Of a DNA stretch of 46,381 bases, positions 4,462 through 13,477 are shown in pieces. The position numbers and the translations under genes were made by a program. The notes beneath the pieces were generated by a model, which worked only from the letters and a program-made list of their open reading frames with translations, ran no database searches and was not told the DNA's origin. The stretch covers positions 1 to 46,381 of the forward strand of contig CANMJR010000022.1 of assembly GCA_947498025.1 (NCBI GenBank). The letters run 5' to 3'. This DNA is from Helicobacteraceae bacterium. Lineage in GTDB: Bacteria; Campylobacterota; Campylobacteria; Campylobacterales; Sulfurimonadaceae. The first letter of the stretch is position 1. Each line of letters starts with the position of its first letter.

Positions 4462-5673
4462 ATGGTGACAACTCTCAATTCATATAATAATTCTATCTAT
4501 TCTGTTAGCAATAGCAGTACCTTAAACGGAGTGGTTAGAATATCCTCTAACGGCTACTATGGCAGTGGAACACTGCTCTATGGTGGCATGGCGGTATTGA
4601 CTGCTGCACATCTTTTTTCCAGTATCAACGCATCGGCAAATATAGTTTTTGAAACATCTCAGGGGAGAAAAACAGTTGCATCTGATGCCATAGAATTGAT
4701 GCCTCAGTATGATACTCTCAATGATAATAATGATTTGGCTCTAGTGTGGCTTGCAGATGCCGCACCGACTGATGCGCATAGATATGAACTCTTTAGAAGC
4801 AGCGATGAGATTGGGAGACTATTTACCGCGGTTGGCTATGGCAATACCGGAAGCGGCTCTGAGGGAATGAGCAGCACTCTTCCTACAGATATTTTACGCC
4901 AGCAAGCCATGAATAAGTTTGAAACTGATGCAGCCGCTATGAAAAATATACTTGGCAGTAACATGGCTTGGACGCCACAGAACAACGCTATTTTGGTAGC
5001 AGATTTTGATGATGGAACAAGTGAGCACGACGCACTTGGGATGCTGATGAACGATAATAACCTTGGATATGGGCACTATGAGGGCATGATTGCACCGGGG
5101 GACAGCGGAGGTCCGGCATTTATTGACGGTAAAGTTGCAGGTGTCGCCAGTTATGTTGCGAGTCTGCATACTTATGATGCTAATCCGGATATTAACACAA
5201 CAACAGATAGCAGTTTTGGCGAAGTTGGTTTTTGGCATAGGGTAAGTTACTATCAGCAGTGGATAGACCAAACCCTGCGTGAACACTACGCAAACGCCCC
5301 AAAAACAGCATCAGAAGTACAAAAAGAAGTAGTTGAAGGTGCAAGCGGTACGACGACCGTTAACTACTTTTTAGTAGAAGTGAGCGGCATACGTAGCGAC
5401 TCAAATGGATGGCTAAGTGTCAAATACACAACAAGAGACGGCACTGCTCTCTCAAATCAGGATTATATCCCTGCAAGCGGCACTCTTGTGCTATATCCTG
5501 ATGAAAATTACGCAGTTATTCCTGTTGAAATTATAGGAGACAACACGCCAGAAGCAAATGAACTCTTTTATCTCGATATTTTTGATCCCGTTGGAGCCAG
5601 CTTTGGCGACAATCAAATAATGCTTACCGCACAGAGAACTATACTAAATGATGATGGATATTTTTTCGTATAG
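4462..5673 (+). CDS. Trypsin-like serine protease with C-terminal Calx-beta domain
   Basis: 403 aa with no signal peptide or N-terminal hydrophobic segment. The chymotrypsin-fold triad is visible: H50 (VLTAAH), D91 (NNDLALVW) and S215 (APGDSGGPAF). Residues ~295-400 form a Calx-beta-like domain (VKYTTRDGTALSNQDYIPAS, then ELFYLDIFDP, then ILNDDG). Calx-beta domains are frequent in type I secreted proteins. An exporter, adaptor and TolC homologue lie 3.4-9 kb downstream, so this is a likely substrate; no glycine-rich RTX nonapeptides are seen. The secretion signal would then sit in the C-terminus (ending DDGYFFV). No SD precedes the ATG. Confidence 0.85.
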   Translation: MVTTLNSYNNSIYSVSNSSTLNGVVRISSNGYYGSGTLLYGGMAVLTAAHLFSSINASANIVFETSQGRKTVASDAIELMPQYDTLNDNNDLALVWLADAAPTDAHRYELFRSSDEIGRLFTAVGYGNTGSGSEGMSSTLPTDILRQQAMNKFETDAAAMKNILGSNMAWTPQNNAILVADFDDGTSEHDALGMLMNDNNLGYGHYEGMIAPGDSGGPAFIDGKVAGVASYVASLHTYDANPDINTTTDSSFGEVGFWHRVSYYQQWIDQTLREHYANAPKTASEVQKEVVEGASGTTTVNYFLVEVSGIRSDSNGWLSVKYTTRDGTALSNQDYIPASGTLVLYPDENYAVIPVEIIGDNTPEANELFYLDIFDPVGASFGDNQIMLTAQRTILNDDGYFFV

Positions 5674-7037: not shown

Positions 7038-7490
7038 ATGAAAAAAAACATTATTGCAAATACATTTACCCCCTCCTACGATGAACTAGAAGACAGACTA
7101 CGGCTAGTCATTAACTATCAAGACATGCAAAACAGAGTTGATTTTATGATAACAAGAAGTTTTGTACTCAATTTAATTCCTACGGCAGAAGAGTTTATAG
7201 AGAGATATTACACTCATCTTGAACCTCATATAATCCAACAAACACAAAACAAAAATGAAGCAATCTCAAAAACAGATAATGTAAATTTGGAACTGCTGCG
7301 AACAAGTGAAGAGCTTTTGACAGAGGTTACCTTCTCTTTTGATATAAATACAAAGTTAACTATAGTAACCTTTAACTCCAAAAACAGTGTGGCACAGGCT
7401 ACTTTAGATGCTGTTTTGTTGTCGCAAATATTTCAAGTAATAAAATCTGCTATCCCATATATTAAGTGGGGAATTTCAAGCCATTTTTAA
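7038..7490 (+). CDS. Uncharacterised 150-aa protein
   Basis: No family recognised. The protein is soluble, without signal peptide or clear membrane segment. The N-terminal half has 'SYDELEDRLRLVINYQDMQNRVDFMITRSFVLNL', suggesting strand-rich structure followed by a helix. The middle is polar, and the C-terminus ends IPYIKWGISSHF. It lies just before the RAYT-SapC fusion and the exporter on the same strand. A role as accessory factor or chaperone of the type I system is a guess from position only. Confidence 0.5.
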   Translation: MKKNIIANTFTPSYDELEDRLRLVINYQDMQNRVDFMITRSFVLNLIPTAEEFIERYYTHLEPHIIQQTQNKNEAISKTDNVNLELLRTSEELLTEVTFSFDINTKLTIVTFNSKNSVAQATLDAVLLSQIFQVIKSAIPYIKWGISSHF

Positions 7491-7602
7491 TTTATGACTA
7501 TGGCACTAATTAAAAATATATAAATTGGTGTCGTAGTGATTTAATCTTCTTTAAAGCTAAAAAAATATATAGTACGACTTGAATCTAAAAAAGGAAATAT
7601 AT

Positions 7603-8991
7603 TTGGCACGAAAGCTGAGAATTTTTGTTGAAAATACGCCACAACATGTTATGCTCAAAAGCATAAATGAGATGGATGTTTTCATAGATAGCAGTGACTA
7701 TGAAGAGTTTTTAAATATTGTTGATGAAGCGAGTCAAAGACATGGTTTAAAAATACACTCTTATATAGTCACGAAAAACTATTTTGAATTCTTGGCTACT
7801 CCCTCAGATGTTGAGTCGCTGCCTAAATTGATGCAAAGTTTAGGCAGGAGATATGTAGGTTATTTTAATAAGAAATATAATCGTACAGGGACGATATGGG
7901 AAGGCAGATATAAAACATCTATAGTAGAGTCGGAACTTTATCTTTTTGATGTAATGGCTTACATCGAAAAAAAATCAAACGATTTGAACTACAGATACAG
8001 CAGCCTCTCTAAAAATTTGTATGATAACTCTGATAAATTAGTTACCTATCATGAGTTGTATAAAAAATTGGGATTTACTCAAGAAGATAGAATGAGTTTC
8101 TACTCTAAAATCTTTTTTGCAAAAATAGAGGAAGAGAAAAACCGTTTTATACAAAGTTGTCTTGAAAAACAGACCATAACAAGCAGTGATAAATTTATTC
8201 GAAATTTAGAGCTCTTAATCGGAATGACCCTTGGTTCAAAAAAGATAGGTCGTCCGAAAAATGAAAACACACAACAAAGGAAAAAAATGTACACAAATTT
8301 ACAAGTATTAGACAAAATGAAACACAAAGAGTTTAAGATTAATCCGCTTGAAAACCTCAATTTTGCAAAGCAGTCGGCATTTTTACCGGTCGTAGCTAAT
8401 GAGGCGGCACTTATCGGTGCGACATTCCCGGTAGTTTTTACATCGGAAGAAAATGCATCACTCGTTGCATTAGTCTCTCTCGGCGGTGATAGTTTAGCAA
8501 TAAACAGTGAGGGCAAATGGATAACAAGCTATGTGCCTAGTGTTTTAAGAAAATACCCTTTTTCAATGGCGAGCACAAAAGAGAATGCAGATCAAAAAGT
8601 TATTCTTATAGATGAAGATTCACACCTTTTCTCAAAGTCAAAAGGGAAACAGCTCTTTAAAAAAGATGGAGAAAAATCGGAGACTTTAGAACATGCAATT
8701 AATTTTTTAACATCTCATGAGCAGCAAAGTATAGTTACTAAAAACATAGTAAGCGAAATTGTTAAGAGCGGTATTTTAGAAGAGAGAGAGATTAGCGTTG
8801 GCGAAGGTGATGAAAAAAAGGTTCTAGTGAACGGATTTAGAGTTGTTGACAGAGAAAAACTAAACAACCTCAGCGATGACATTTTGGCTTCTTGGGTGAG
8901 AAGAGGGATTATCACTTTTATAGATGCACATTTAAAATCGCTTGAAAATATACAGACACTCTTTAATTTGGCAAACCAAAGACAAAATTAA
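7603..8991 (+). CDS. sapC: Degenerate RAYT-like domain fused to a SapC domain
   Basis: TTG 7603 is chosen: AAGGA lies 7-8 bases upstream and the product starts ARKLRIFVENTPQHVML, aligned with the RAYT at 2047. That gives 462 aa. Residues ~1-130 follow the RAYT fold with GTIWEGRYKTS (96-106). The HUH motif is lost, since H59-Y60-H61 of the active enzyme is N59-Y60-F61 here, and RNP is KKS; the Tyr at 120 remains. Residues ~230-460 are a SapC domain (PLENLNFAKQSAFLPV, EAALIGATFPVVF, GKQLFKKDGEKSETLE). SapC is encoded with the S-layer exporter in Campylobacter fetus, and the same order is seen here. The transposase half is presumably a DNA/RNA-binding or structural module. Confidence 0.75.
   Translation: MARKLRIFVENTPQHVMLKSINEMDVFIDSSDYEEFLNIVDEASQRHGLKIHSYIVTKNYFEFLATPSDVESLPKLMQSLGRRYVGYFNKKYNRTGTIWEGRYKTSIVESELYLFDVMAYIEKKSNDLNYRYSSLSKNLYDNSDKLVTYHELYKKLGFTQEDRMSFYSKIFFAKIEEEKNRFIQSCLEKQTITSSDKFIRNLELLIGMTLGSKKIGRPKNENTQQRKKMYTNLQVLDKMKHKEFKINPLENLNFAKQSAFLPVVANEAALIGATFPVVFTSEENASLVALVSLGGDSLAINSEGKWITSYVPSVLRKYPFSMASTKENADQKVILIDEDSHLFSKSKGKQLFKKDGEKSETLEHAINFLTSHEQQSIVTKNIVSEIVKSGILEEREISVGEGDEKKVLVNGFRVVDREKLNNLSDDILASWVRRGIITFIDAHLKSLENIQTLFNLANQRQN
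8277..8289 (+). promoter_or_regulatory. Possible internal SD and start for SapC alone
   Basis: AAAGG just before a run of A leads to ATG 8287, in frame with the fusion. It would yield a 234-aa protein starting MYTNLQVLDKMKHKEF, about the length of a free-standing SapC. The locus may make both a fusion and a short form. Confidence 0.4.
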
Positions 8992-9082: not shown

Positions 9083-10861
9083 ATGGCACAAGTACAAAAA
9101 AATCAAAAGAGTAAAGTTAGCGAACTCAAAAGTGCGATAATGCAATCTAAGAAATCATTTTTAGTCGTTGGTTTCTTCAGTCTATTTATCAATCTGCTTA
9201 TGCTCGTTCCATCTTTATACATGTTACAGTTATATGACAGGGTTTTGACGAGCAGAAGTATGGAGACGCTTATAATGCTTACTCTGATTGTTCTTGTTCT
9301 TTTCATCACCATGGCTACTTTAGAGATTGTAAGATCTAAAATATTGGTATTGGTAGGAAATAAGCTAGACAATCTTTTAAGCAAAAGAGTCTTCGATTCG
9401 CTCTTTGACTTGGCAAATAAACAGCCGGGGAAAGCATCCTCTATGCCTCTCAATGATTTGACACAAATTAGACAATTTATGACCGGTAACGGACTCTTTG
9501 CTTTTTTTGATGCTCCATGGATGCCTATATATATTGCAGTTCTTTTTATGTTTCACCCAATGTTCGGTTATTTCGCAATTTTTGCCGGAATAGTTTTACT
9601 TATTCTTACTATTTTGAATGAGTACGACACAAAAGAGAAGCTGCTCGAAGCAAATGTAATGAGCAGAGCTTCTACGATGTATGTTGATTCAAACCTAAGA
9701 AATGCAGAAGTTGTAAATGCAATGGGCATGAAAGGAAGAATCCAACATATCTGGAGAGATAAATATTACGCTTTTTTGAATGCACAAACAGAGGCGAGTA
9801 ACAAAGCCGGTATCTGGTCCAATATTTCAAAAAGCTTAAGAATGCTTTTTCAGTCACTCATGTTAGGTCTTGGCGGCTATCTTGCAATAAAATCGGAAGT
9901 AAGCCCAGGAATGATGATTGCAGGTTCTATCATCATGGGTAGAGCTTTGGCTCCTCTTGATTTGATGATTAGTAGCTGGAAAGGTTTTAGCAGTGCTAGA
10001 ACATCGTATGAAAGATTAGAGGGACTGCTCGAGAATTTTCCGAAAGATAAAGAGCACATGAAACTCCCCGCTCCACATGGAGAAATACTCCTTGAGGGCG
10101 TAGTGGTAATTCCGCCAAACGCACAGCAGCCATCCATTCGAGGTATCTCAATGCAGATAAACAAGGGCGATGTTGTTGGAATAGTCGGACCGAGCGCTGC
10201 CGGAAAATCCTCTTTAGCCAGAATTATTTTAGGATTATGGCCACTAGCCGCCGGTAAAGCAAGACTTGATAAGGCAGATATTTATCAGTGGGATAAAGTT
10301 GACCTTGGAAAATATATAGGCTACTTGCCTCAGGATATAGAGCTCTTTGAAGGAACTATCAGTCAAAATATCTCAAGATTTGAAGAAGTAGATTCAGCAA
10401 AAGTTGTTGAAGCTGCAACAAAAGCCGGTGTGCATGAGATGATTTTGAGATTGCCTAACGGGTATGACACAAAAATAGGAGCAGGCGGAGAATCGCTCTC
10501 CGGCGGACAGAGACAGCGAGTAGGTTTTGCCCGTGCTATCTATAACAATCCTGTTTTAGTTGTTCTTGATGAACCAAACTCAAATCTTGATGACCAAGGC
10601 GAAGCAGCTCTTGTTGAAGCTATAAAAACACTCAAAGAGAGTAAAACAACAGTTATAATAATTACACATCGACCGAATATATTGCAGGTTACAAACAAGT
10701 TAGCCGTAATTAAACAGGGATTGTTAGAACTCTACGGTGATACAAATGAAGTTTTATCAAGACTTTCAGCAGCAGCGCAAGGTGCGGCTCCTCAGCCTCA
10801 AAAGCCTGCCGCCAGCCCACAGCCGATGCAAACAATATCGCTTAGTAAACCAAGTAGTTAG
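9083..10861 (+). CDS. Type I secretion ABC transporter (PrtD/SapD-like)
   Basis: 592 aa. The N-terminal membrane domain (~25-300) carries the PrtD-type pattern 'PSLYMLQLYDRVLTSRSMETL' and 'FDAPWMPIYIAVLFMFHP'. The ATPase domain has Walker A GPSAAGKSS (~366), the signature LSGGQRQR (~471), Walker B VLVVLDEP (~492) and a switch His (IITHRP). There is no N-terminal peptidase or CLD domain, which sets it with PrtD/SapD rather than HlyB. It powers one-step export across both membranes with the next two gene products. AAGGA 5 bases upstream supports ATG 9083. Confidence 0.93.
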   Translation: MAQVQKNQKSKVSELKSAIMQSKKSFLVVGFFSLFINLLMLVPSLYMLQLYDRVLTSRSMETLIMLTLIVLVLFITMATLEIVRSKILVLVGNKLDNLLSKRVFDSLFDLANKQPGKASSMPLNDLTQIRQFMTGNGLFAFFDAPWMPIYIAVLFMFHPMFGYFAIFAGIVLLILTILNEYDTKEKLLEANVMSRASTMYVDSNLRNAEVVNAMGMKGRIQHIWRDKYYAFLNAQTEASNKAGIWSNISKSLRMLFQSLMLGLGGYLAIKSEVSPGMMIAGSIIMGRALAPLDLMISSWKGFSSARTSYERLEGLLENFPKDKEHMKLPAPHGEILLEGVVVIPPNAQQPSIRGISMQINKGDVVGIVGPSAAGKSSLARIILGLWPLAAGKARLDKADIYQWDKVDLGKYIGYLPQDIELFEGTISQNISRFEEVDSAKVVEAATKAGVHEMILRLPNGYDTKIGAGGESLSGGQRQRVGFARAIYNNPVLVVLDEPNSNLDDQGEAALVEAIKTLKESKTTVIIITHRPNILQVTNKLAVIKQGLLELYGDTNEVLSRLSAAAQGAAPQPQKPAASPQPMQTISLSKPSS

Positions 10862-10869
10862 GAAAGATT

Positions 10870-12165
10870 ATGGATAATAAACAGATAAAAGTGCCATTAA
10901 GTGATGACACTTCAGTAATTAGATTTGGATTAGCAGTTGTATTTGTAGTATTTGTATTGATGGGCGGTTGGATGACTTTTGCTCCGCTTGCAACCTCTTC
11001 TGTTGCTACCGGAAAGGTATCGGCAGATTTAGGTAAAAAAACCATTCAACATTTAGAGGGTGGAGTTATAGAAGCTATCTATGTAAAAGATGGCGATAAG
11101 GTAAAAAAAGATCAAATATTAATGAAGCTAAGTGATGTGCAGGTGAAAGCACAGCTTGATATTTTAAACGCGCAATATCAAGATAGCATAGCTCTTTTAG
11201 CAAGACTCAAAGCGCAAAGAGATAACTTTAAGAAGATAGAATTTCCTAGTGAGTCGCATGACGCAGATGCGATTAAAAATCAGACGAATATTTTTATTTC
11301 ATCCAATAAATCTATTGAAGACGAAACTGCAATTACAAATAACAGAATTGTGCAGCTTCAAAGCCAAATTGACGGAACTACTTCATTAATCGCCAGTAAG
11401 CAAAATAGACTTGAATCTATTAAAGAGGAGATTTTAGAGTGGGAAGATTTATTTAAACAGAGACTTATTGATAAACAAAAAATCAGAGACCTGCAACGAG
11501 AAAGTAATATGATAGATGGCGATTTGGCAAATGCAAAATCTGAAATAGCGAAGTTAAAAGAGCAGATAAGTGAAGTAGGCACGCAAAAGCTACTAAGAGA
11601 AAAAGAGTTTAAAAATGATATTCTGCAAAAATATGTAGAAGCAGAGACTCGCATTTCAGACCTGAAATCAAAAATAGTTGCAAATGAAGATATTATTAAA
11701 AGAACAACTATAACTTCACCGATTGACGGCACGGTTGTTGGACTCAGTCTGCATACTGTCGGCGGTGTCGTAAGCCCAAGTAAACCAATCCTTGAGATTA
11801 TTCCCGAAGATGCAAAGCTTTTAGTGATAGCGCAAGTAAAAACAACAGATGTTGACAAGGTGAGAATCGGATTGCTAGCAGAGATTAAATTCTCGGCTTT
11901 TAATCTAAAGCATGTCCTTGCCATTGAAGGTAAAGTCGTGCATGTCTCAGCAGATATTTTTATGGATGAGGCAACGCACACTCCCTATTATGAAGCGAAG
12001 ATAGAAGTGACTCAAGAGGGCAAAAAACTACTCGAAGAGAATAAATTCGTACTGGTTTCAGGCATGCCTGCAGAGGTTATGATTAATATAGGAGATAGAA
12101 CGGCACTTAACTACCTTGTTAAACCTTTTGAAGAGATGTTAGGCAGGAGCTTAAATGAAGAGTAG
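10870..12165 (+). CDS. HlyD/PrtE-type membrane-fusion protein
   Basis: 431 aa with a cytosolic start, one membrane helix at about 17-36 and a periplasmic part. The lipoyl/biotinyl half-motif (GKKTIQHLEGGVIEAIYVKD) is followed by a long coiled coil at about 130-265 (RIVQLQSQIDG, ESNMIDGDLANAKSEIAKLK). The second half-motif (ITSPIDGTVVGLS) and a barrel region with PEDAKLLVIAQV close the protein. It bridges the ABC transporter to the TolC-like protein. It starts 8 bases after the transporter and overlaps the next gene by 11 bases. Confidence 0.92.
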   Translation: MDNKQIKVPLSDDTSVIRFGLAVVFVVFVLMGGWMTFAPLATSSVATGKVSADLGKKTIQHLEGGVIEAIYVKDGDKVKKDQILMKLSDVQVKAQLDILNAQYQDSIALLARLKAQRDNFKKIEFPSESHDADAIKNQTNIFISSNKSIEDETAITNNRIVQLQSQIDGTTSLIASKQNRLESIKEEILEWEDLFKQRLIDKQKIRDLQRESNMIDGDLANAKSEIAKLKEQISEVGTQKLLREKEFKNDILQKYVEAETRISDLKSKIVANEDIIKRTTITSPIDGTVVGLSLHTVGGVVSPSKPILEIIPEDAKLLVIAQVKTTDVDKVRIGLLAEIKFSAFNLKHVLAIEGKVVHVSADIFMDEATHTPYYEAKIEVTQEGKKLLEENKFVLVSGMPAEVMINIGDRTALNYLVKPFEEMLGRSLNEE

Positions 12166-13477
12166 CAGCATCTCAAAACTGATACTTTTATTAGCTTTTT
12201 CTATAAGTTATGTGAATGCAGCAGAGGTTCTACTCTTTTCAAAAGCGTATGAGCTTGCTCTTGCAAACACAAATGCAATCAAATCTTCAGCCTATAGAGC
12301 TGAAGCCGAGAAAGAAAAGGTGAATCAGGAGTACTCTAAACTCTACCCGCAAATAAATTTTTCGGCTAATTATGGAAAGTCAGATTATACATACAATCCT
12401 AATTATAATAAAATAGATCATGTGAGACAGGGCATGATTAGTAATACGCTCTCACTCAGACAGTCGGTATATAATGCAGATACCTTCTCAAGAATAGCCA
12501 TGGAGACATCCAGAGGTAAACTCTACGAAATTGATTCTGACTTAAAAAAAGAGGAGTTGGCTCAGAGTGTATTTAAGGTCTATTTAGAGTTGTTAAAGTC
12601 TCATAATAAAATAAAACTCTATGAGTCAAATCTTCAATTTACAAAGTCAAAACTAGATACATTAACGCAACGCTACGATATGAATTTGGCAAACAAAATG
12701 GATTTGCTTCAGATGCAGGTGGAGTACAGCTCTGCTTTGATTAGTTTAGATAAAGAGAAAAAACAACTCAAAGTGAATGAGTTGAAGCTGACTCAATTTA
12801 TCGGTGATGCAGAGTATAAATTGCCGACATTAGAGATAAATAATCAAACGCTAGAGAGTATTAAAGCCATGCAGGCGTCTATAGTGAGCGGTGATACCTT
12901 TGAAAAAAACCTCAAAGTACTTCAGGCAGAAGTGGCATTAAAACTCTCAAAAGAACAAAAAGGGAACGCATGGGATGCGCATCTCCCTCGTTTAGATTTG
13001 CAGGCATCTGCTTCTAAATACAATACGGATGATCCGACAAGTGACGCACCCTACAATAATGTACAGCAAGTGGCACTCGTTTTGAATATTCCAATTTATA
13101 GCGGTGGAATGGTTTCATCTATGGTCGCCTCATCCGAACTGATGAGCAAAGCCGCCAATGAAGATTTGCTAGAGACTAAAAAAGAGGTCAAAGTGCAGTA
13201 TGATGAGTACTTGGCATCTTTTAACACCTCAGTAGATTCGGTGACAATGTACAAAAATGCACTAGCATCCGCTGAACTTTATGTTAAAGCCGTAGAACAG
13301 GGTTATGAGCATGGTCTAAAAAGTATTATTGATTTAAACGAAGCAAACACTAAGTTCTATGATGTAAAATACAAATATCTTGACAATATACATGGAATGG
13401 TTGACTCCTATGTGGGACTGCTTATCGTGAGCAACAACTTTGAGAATATAGGTTTGTTAGATAAAATAGTAGAATAA
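12155..13477 (+). CDS. TolC-family outer-membrane protein
   Basis: 440 aa with a signal peptide (MKSSSISKLILLLAFSISYV, cleavage probably after NAA). The repeated TolC layout follows: 'KAYELALANTNAIKSSAYRAEAEKEKV', 'YPQINFSANYG' and 'LKLSKEQKGNAWDAHLPRLDLQASASK', with the second half ending 'VEQGYEHGLKSIIDLNEANTKFYDVKY'. It forms the outer-membrane tunnel of the type I system. AGGAG inside the end of the preceding gene gives the start. A ~60-base gap separates it from the glycan genes. Confidence 0.92.
   Translation: MKSSSISKLILLLAFSISYVNAAEVLLFSKAYELALANTNAIKSSAYRAEAEKEKVNQEYSKLYPQINFSANYGKSDYTYNPNYNKIDHVRQGMISNTLSLRQSVYNADTFSRIAMETSRGKLYEIDSDLKKEELAQSVFKVYLELLKSHNKIKLYESNLQFTKSKLDTLTQRYDMNLANKMDLLQMQVEYSSALISLDKEKKQLKVNELKLTQFIGDAEYKLPTLEINNQTLESIKAMQASIVSGDTFEKNLKVLQAEVALKLSKEQKGNAWDAHLPRLDLQASASKYNTDDPTSDAPYNNVQQVALVLNIPIYSGGMVSSMVASSELMSKAANEDLLETKKEVKVQYDEYLASFNTSVDSVTMYKNALASAELYVKAVEQGYEHGLKSIIDLNEANTKFYDVKYKYLDNIHGMVDSYVGLLIVSNNFENIGLLDKIVE

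Follow-up and report, generated by a model that had tools for sequence, protein, structure and literature searches.

RAYTs are widespread transposases that occur in single copy; their benefit to the cell is debated, and known RAYTs bind single-stranded hairpins. TldR proteins, in turn, are transcription factors that are guided by RNA and were domesticated from TnpB nucleases. TldR control of flagellin has been described (PMC13418256). Within the 46,381-nucleotide stretch of DNA analyzed here (the window), a single gene shares features with both groups and with a third system, the sapCDEF-type secretion loci. It resembles TIRYT/RAYT (TnpAREP) proteins in its Y1_Tnp homology, its TnpAREP fold and, less certainly, a GGGGWSAS-like tag about 75 nt upstream (PMC3733652), but differs in that it is HUH-dead, has lost the RNPxKAG loop, carries an attached SapC domain and has its tag as one arm of a single-copy hairpin. 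As in sapCDEF-type loci such as the C. fetus S-layer locus (PMC4943207), the SapC domain lies directly upstream of ABC, HlyD and TolC genes; unlike SapC there, the fusion has a transposase domain and a second start, and no S-layer substrate has been shown. Like TldR it is transposon-derived, and whereas TldR regulates surface or secretion-structure genes, RAYT-SapC is here proposed to do so. It differs from TldR in being a Y1 transposase rather than a TnpB, in its fusion to an exporter component, in having its own upstream hairpin as candidate target and in the absence of a guide RNA. We found no literature naming SapC, a transposase and Sulfurimonas together.

A Y1 transposase domain and SapC share one conserved reading frame

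The fusion gene comprises two parts:

7603 to 8286, + strand: RAYT/TIRYT (Y1 transposase) domain with a TTG start, HUH-dead, assigned by Pfam and structural match
8287 to 8991, + strand: SapC domain, also a predicted separate product from an internal ATG, assigned by PF07277 and AF2

Positions 7603-8991 (+) form a single open frame, running without interruption from TTG 7603 through the stop at 8991. A Pfam search of the fusion protein assigned the N-terminal ~230 residues to the Y1 transposases (PF01797, E 1.4e-8) and the C-terminal 234 to SapC (PF07277, E 1.3e-57). The original prediction of a one-frame RAYT-SapC fusion is borne out by the uninterrupted frame, both Pfam domains and 28 fused homologues, and its assignment of the C-terminal half to SapC is confirmed by the PF07277 match. 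Its RAYT part was likewise correctly identified but, at ~130 residues, drawn too short, as the domain extends to GRPKN at residue ~219 and is full-length at ~230 aa. Comparison of a predicted structure with RAYT had also been proposed, and the AlphaFold N-terminal domain indeed matched TnpAREP, the top structural match being 4er8, a complex of TnpAREP with a REP hairpin (Z 14.6, 152 residues, 3.0 A). The model has two domains with a disordered linker between them (residues 211-227) that ends just before internal Met229. SapC modelled alone (8287-8988) reached an AF2 pLDDT of 92; because a fold search among solved structures gave no convincing match, its mechanism stays unknown, and we found no assigned mechanism for the role of SapC in type I secretion.

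The suggested search for the same fusion in homologues recovered it at 28 loci in Sulfurimonas and several other Campylobacterota families (43-95% identical). A sequencing error, or homologues with separate genes, had been named as grounds for refutation, and with 28 fused homologues this objection fails. That assembly or a frameshift artificially joined two separate genes is already refuted by these homologues and can be considered practically impossible: a stop inside the RAYT part in one MAG (L048/L007) would fit such an artefact, but the fusion is in frame at all 28 loci, including genomes assembled in one contig. That stop codon lies at 10325-10327 of L048, with SapC and the internal start intact. 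Across 100 Sulfurimonas genomes, 18 had sapC together with the exporter, 1 the exporter only and 81 neither (Fisher p 6e-19, uncorrected for relatedness); every one of the 18 sapC genes was part of a fusion, one of them interrupted by a stop in its RAYT portion. Phage records, when searched, yielded a single distant match only.

The fusion heads a PrtD-type exporter operon

The neighboring genes are as follows:

4462 to 5673, + strand: trypsin and Calx-beta protein with C-terminus NDDGYFFV, probable exporter substrate (substrate role inferred)
7038 to 7490, + strand: conserved 150-aa protein of unknown family, adjoining the fusion
9083 to 10861, + strand: PrtD-type type I secretion ABC permease/ATPase (TIGR01842, E 2.1e-230)
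10870 to 12165, + strand: HlyD-family membrane fusion protein (TIGR01843, E 3.7e-103)
12155 to 13477, + strand: TolC-family outer membrane protein (PF02321; TIGR01844, E 1.5e-56)

SapC thus lies in an operon with PrtD-type ABC, HlyD and TolC genes. All complete fusion loci have PrtD-type exporter genes, which in L100 come after a divergent stand-alone sapC, and no such exporter was found nearby in 19/20 stand-alone SapC loci for which wide flanks were fetched. Of the S-layer-type exporter originally described, the exporter stood, as a PrtD-type system (TIGR01842), but the S-layer link was only an analogy to sapCDEF. The probable cargo here is the trypsin/Calx-beta protein, a homologue of which lies near the fusion in many loci; no S-layer protein has been shown. 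Most fusion loci have the 150-aa protein, in one orientation or the other, and it also occurs beside unfused SapC in L101 and L194; it has no match in Pfam or NCBIfam.

The RAYT domain lost its HUH site and remains under selection

In the window protein, Y60-F61-E62 (7780-7788) stands where the HYH of the RAYT at 2047 aligns, with both HUH histidines lost, and in place of the RNPxKAG stretch there is an 8-residue deletion plus KKS. The replacement of HYH by NYF and of RNP by KKS had been predicted; the HUH loss and KKS hold, but the register was off by one. Tyr120 (7960-7962), a catalytic-type tyrosine, is retained, and a GRPKN motif lies near 8248. Among the HUH-dead members, Tyr120 is present in 21/23 (91%) and Glu62 in 22/23, the former HUH strand now reading as a conserved Y-F-E-F, and most lack the RNPxKAG loop. 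Comparison bears out the predicted catalytically dead domain insofar as both histidines are gone; the loss of catalysis, as in transposase-derived transcription regulators, is read from the missing HUH residues and not from an assay.

The RAYT part has a dN/dS of about 0.08-0.15 in most close pairs and up to 0.29 in more distant ones. Together with the near-invariant Glu62, this argues that the lost HUH site is not in free decay, and by these estimates the domain is under strong purifying selection after HUH loss, only somewhat weaker than that on SapC. The alpha-3/beta-4 region, which is equivalent to parts of E. coli TnpAREP that contact DNA (PMC8266576), is among its best conserved stretches.

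In the RAYT tree, the fused domains group together in a single clade (SH-aLRT 94). Proteobacterial stand-alone genes lie next to it, and the nearest stand-alone relatives found are Proteobacterial TIRYT-type genes. HUH is intact only in fusions L049, L088, L092 and L100, which are early-branching members of the fused clade, and domestication therefore appears to have been caught stepwise. The other members, with both histidines lost, form one clade (SH-aLRT 96), and L091 is half-lost separately. Local RAYTs such as that at 2047 fall apart from the fused clade, in a different subgroup, and by this tree descent of the fused domain from the RAYT at 2047 is rejected.

Several further RAYT remnants and tags were observed. 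The local, active-looking RAYT at 2047 is preceded by repeated tags of the AAAGGGTGTCAGGCACTC type (window about 1917-2046), and the tag variant seems to differ from one RAYT subgroup to the next in these genomes. One genome has a second RAYT copy that is broken and preceded by a hairpin (G041:C7:44700-45361). In L095 (6616-7716), the RAYT-like N-terminus of SapC is strongly reduced, the internal Met is missing and the hairpin survives only as a weak remnant.

Two conserved starts predict two products

Each part of the gene has its own translation signals:

7591 to 7605, + strand: Shine-Dalgarno AAGGA and the weak but conserved TTG at which the fusion starts, from start-codon conservation
8276 to 8289, + strand: internal Shine-Dalgarno AAAGG (8276-8280) and ATG for SapC alone, from conservation

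The start codon of the fusion is TTG in 27/28 members, GTG in 1/28 and ATG in none (0/28). The in-frame ATG at 8287 with AAAGG, noted in the original prediction, is present, and an internal Met with a Shine-Dalgarno sequence at the SapC border is conserved in 27/28 fusions, the exception being L100, which has another sapC beside it. The AAGGA bases are kept at this border even where the residues differ (RKK versus GKK), and AGG makes up 16/17 Arg codons in the Shine-Dalgarno column versus 4.7% elsewhere. The internal SapC start is thus supported by conservation, and a separate SapC product is predicted.

A covarying, single-copy hairpin lies upstream of the fusion

Two elements precede the gene:

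7491 to 7543, + strand: conserved hairpin with arms 7491-7507 and 7527-7543 and the RAYT-family tag GTGTCGTAGT in its right arm, proposed RAYT binding site (covariation, single copy)
7550 to 7573, + strand: probable promoter, TTTAAAGC at 7550-7557 and TATAGT at 7568-7573, downstream of the hairpin (conservation in orthologues)

Across 25 sequences, hairpin covariation was 0.304, as opposed to 0.195+-0.019 in shuffles (0/500) and at most 0.124 when slid. Wobble pairs comprised 51 G.T versus 13 A.C, favoring the + strand, as expected for a strand-specific hairpin. The tag lies 74-76 nt ahead of the start codon in most members. The right arm of the hairpin resembles GGGGTCAGAGT, found upstream of the Proteobacterial relatives with matching spacing (72-79 nt in 5/6). 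The window tag is GTGTCGTA and that of three HUH-intact members GGGTCAGA/GGGTCGGA with the same spacing, as compared with the TIR tag GGGGWSAS; a downstream copy was not systematically sought. The GGGGWSAS tag of TIRYT-type transposase genes is already published (PMC3733652), and the tag itself is not new. What is new is that it is maintained as a hairpin next to a transposase that is dead and fused, in the form of a conserved, covarying, single-copy element just upstream of a promoter that is inferred.

The hairpin occurs once per genome, at the fusion locus, except for a second copy at a degenerate fragment in G041, none in G103 and a weak remnant in G129. It is absent from 28/28 stand-alone SapC loci; at L091 its left arm is missing and at L095 only a weak remnant persists. 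Since the hairpin model was built from fusion-locus sequences, only its absence elsewhere is informative. In the window's genome, the model had no match with E <1 apart from the fusion locus and the tag pattern occurred at chance level only; in 17 other fusion genomes nothing fell below E 0.001 outside fusion loci, the second copy in G041 being located at a broken RAYT fragment. With no second site found, regulation beyond the fusion's own operon is unsupported. Readings of the hairpin as a terminator or a known RNA family were rejected, with no terminator and no Rfam family at threshold. The probable promoter at 7550-7573 is inferred from conservation only and was not among the sites listed by an E. 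coli-type consensus promoter scan.

In genome G070, a stand-alone sapC with exporter has no RAYT part but has retained its promoter, its Shine-Dalgarno sequence and the tag at -74. This sapC nests inside the HUH-dead fusions in the SapC tree (91/97), and it is faced by a divergent, HUH-intact RAYT-SapC gene without an internal start. The simplest reading of a tag kept beside such a gene, albeit in one genome, is that RAYT-SapC can act on the tag in trans.

A proposed autoregulator and its alternatives

We propose that a TIRYT-type Y1 transposase, captured together with its own promoter and upstream tag, became fused to SapC, the accessory component of a type I exporter of the PrtD type, and lost its cutting chemistry while keeping its nucleic-acid-binding fold. 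The RAYT domain would bind the conserved hairpin that precedes the start codon of its gene by about 75 nt, and the fusion protein would thereby regulate its own operon, most likely by negative feedback. The weak TTG would yield little of the long regulator, and the strong internal ribosome site would supply the exporter with free SapC. Within the fusion, the state of the exporter or its substrate could be relayed from the SapC half to the DNA-binding half. That the domesticated, HUH-dead TIRYT-SapC now binds this hairpin and regulates its own operon is a reading toward which we lean with reserve, as both binding and regulation are inferred and there are no binding or expression data. We count in its favor selection on the RAYT part, the TnpAREP-like fold, Y-F-E-F, hairpin covariation and spacing, the likeness of the tag, G070 and exporter co-occurrence. 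The fusion, purifying selection, HUH loss, internal start and tie of the hairpin to fusion loci are established by sequence comparison, whereas hairpin binding, the sign of regulation and SapC sensing are inferences. The earlier hint at regulation of these genes thus gains comparative backing, with the hairpin at 7491-7543 as candidate target, but nucleic-acid binding and regulation remain inferred. Against autoregulation, the position of the hairpin ahead of the inferred promoter would require binding as an extruded single strand or as duplex. The hairpin may also in part be left over from the end of the element, although covariation argues for upkeep. The fuller version, an export-coupled transcription switch in which RAYT grips the promoter hairpin, SapC senses exporter or substrate load and the long and short products are made unequally, is tentative, and we would sooner doubt than accept it.

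The RAYT part might instead be passive and serve SapC merely as a folded extension at its N-terminus or as a protein-interaction module, with the hairpin a relic or another factor's site. Lost catalysis, the strongly reduced RAYT part of L095, the stop inside that of L048 with SapC intact and the possibility of making SapC alone from the internal start all fit this explanation, but it must contend with strong purifying selection on RAYT, a putative DNA-binding region among the best conserved, a hairpin that covaries and keeps its spacing, and the G070 tag, which outlasted the RAYT part there and has a second RAYT-SapC gene next to it; we consider it unlikely, if still a serious contender. An RNA target is improbable in our judgment: RAYT would bind an mRNA hairpin, arising from readthrough of the upstream gene or in exporter-substrate mRNA, and control translation or bring the mRNA to the exporter. 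Here the wobble pairs favor the strand that would be transcribed and the stop of the 150-aa gene (7488-7490) directly adjoins the hairpin in the window; however, the hairpin is kept in L038 and L045 despite an oppositely oriented neighbor gene, a conserved promoter lies downstream of it, and neither an Rfam family at threshold nor a terminator was found. Retention of Tyr120 in 21/23 dead members and intact HUH in four early-branching fusions could point to a single-strand nuclease or transposase still working by altered chemistry at its own hairpin, but with both metal-binding histidines gone, the RNPxKAG loop deleted in most dead members and the hairpin still single copy, we give this very little credence.

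Returning to the proposed autoregulator of these Campylobacterota sulfur bacteria, the lost DNA-cutting site and a hairpin retained over a very long time suggest that a former transposase is now a self-acting switch for a secretion operon. Living lineages preserve the path from an active-looking enzyme to a fused protein that is dead and under selection, together with the likely target site, such that RAYT domestication becomes directly testable and a handle on SapC is gained.
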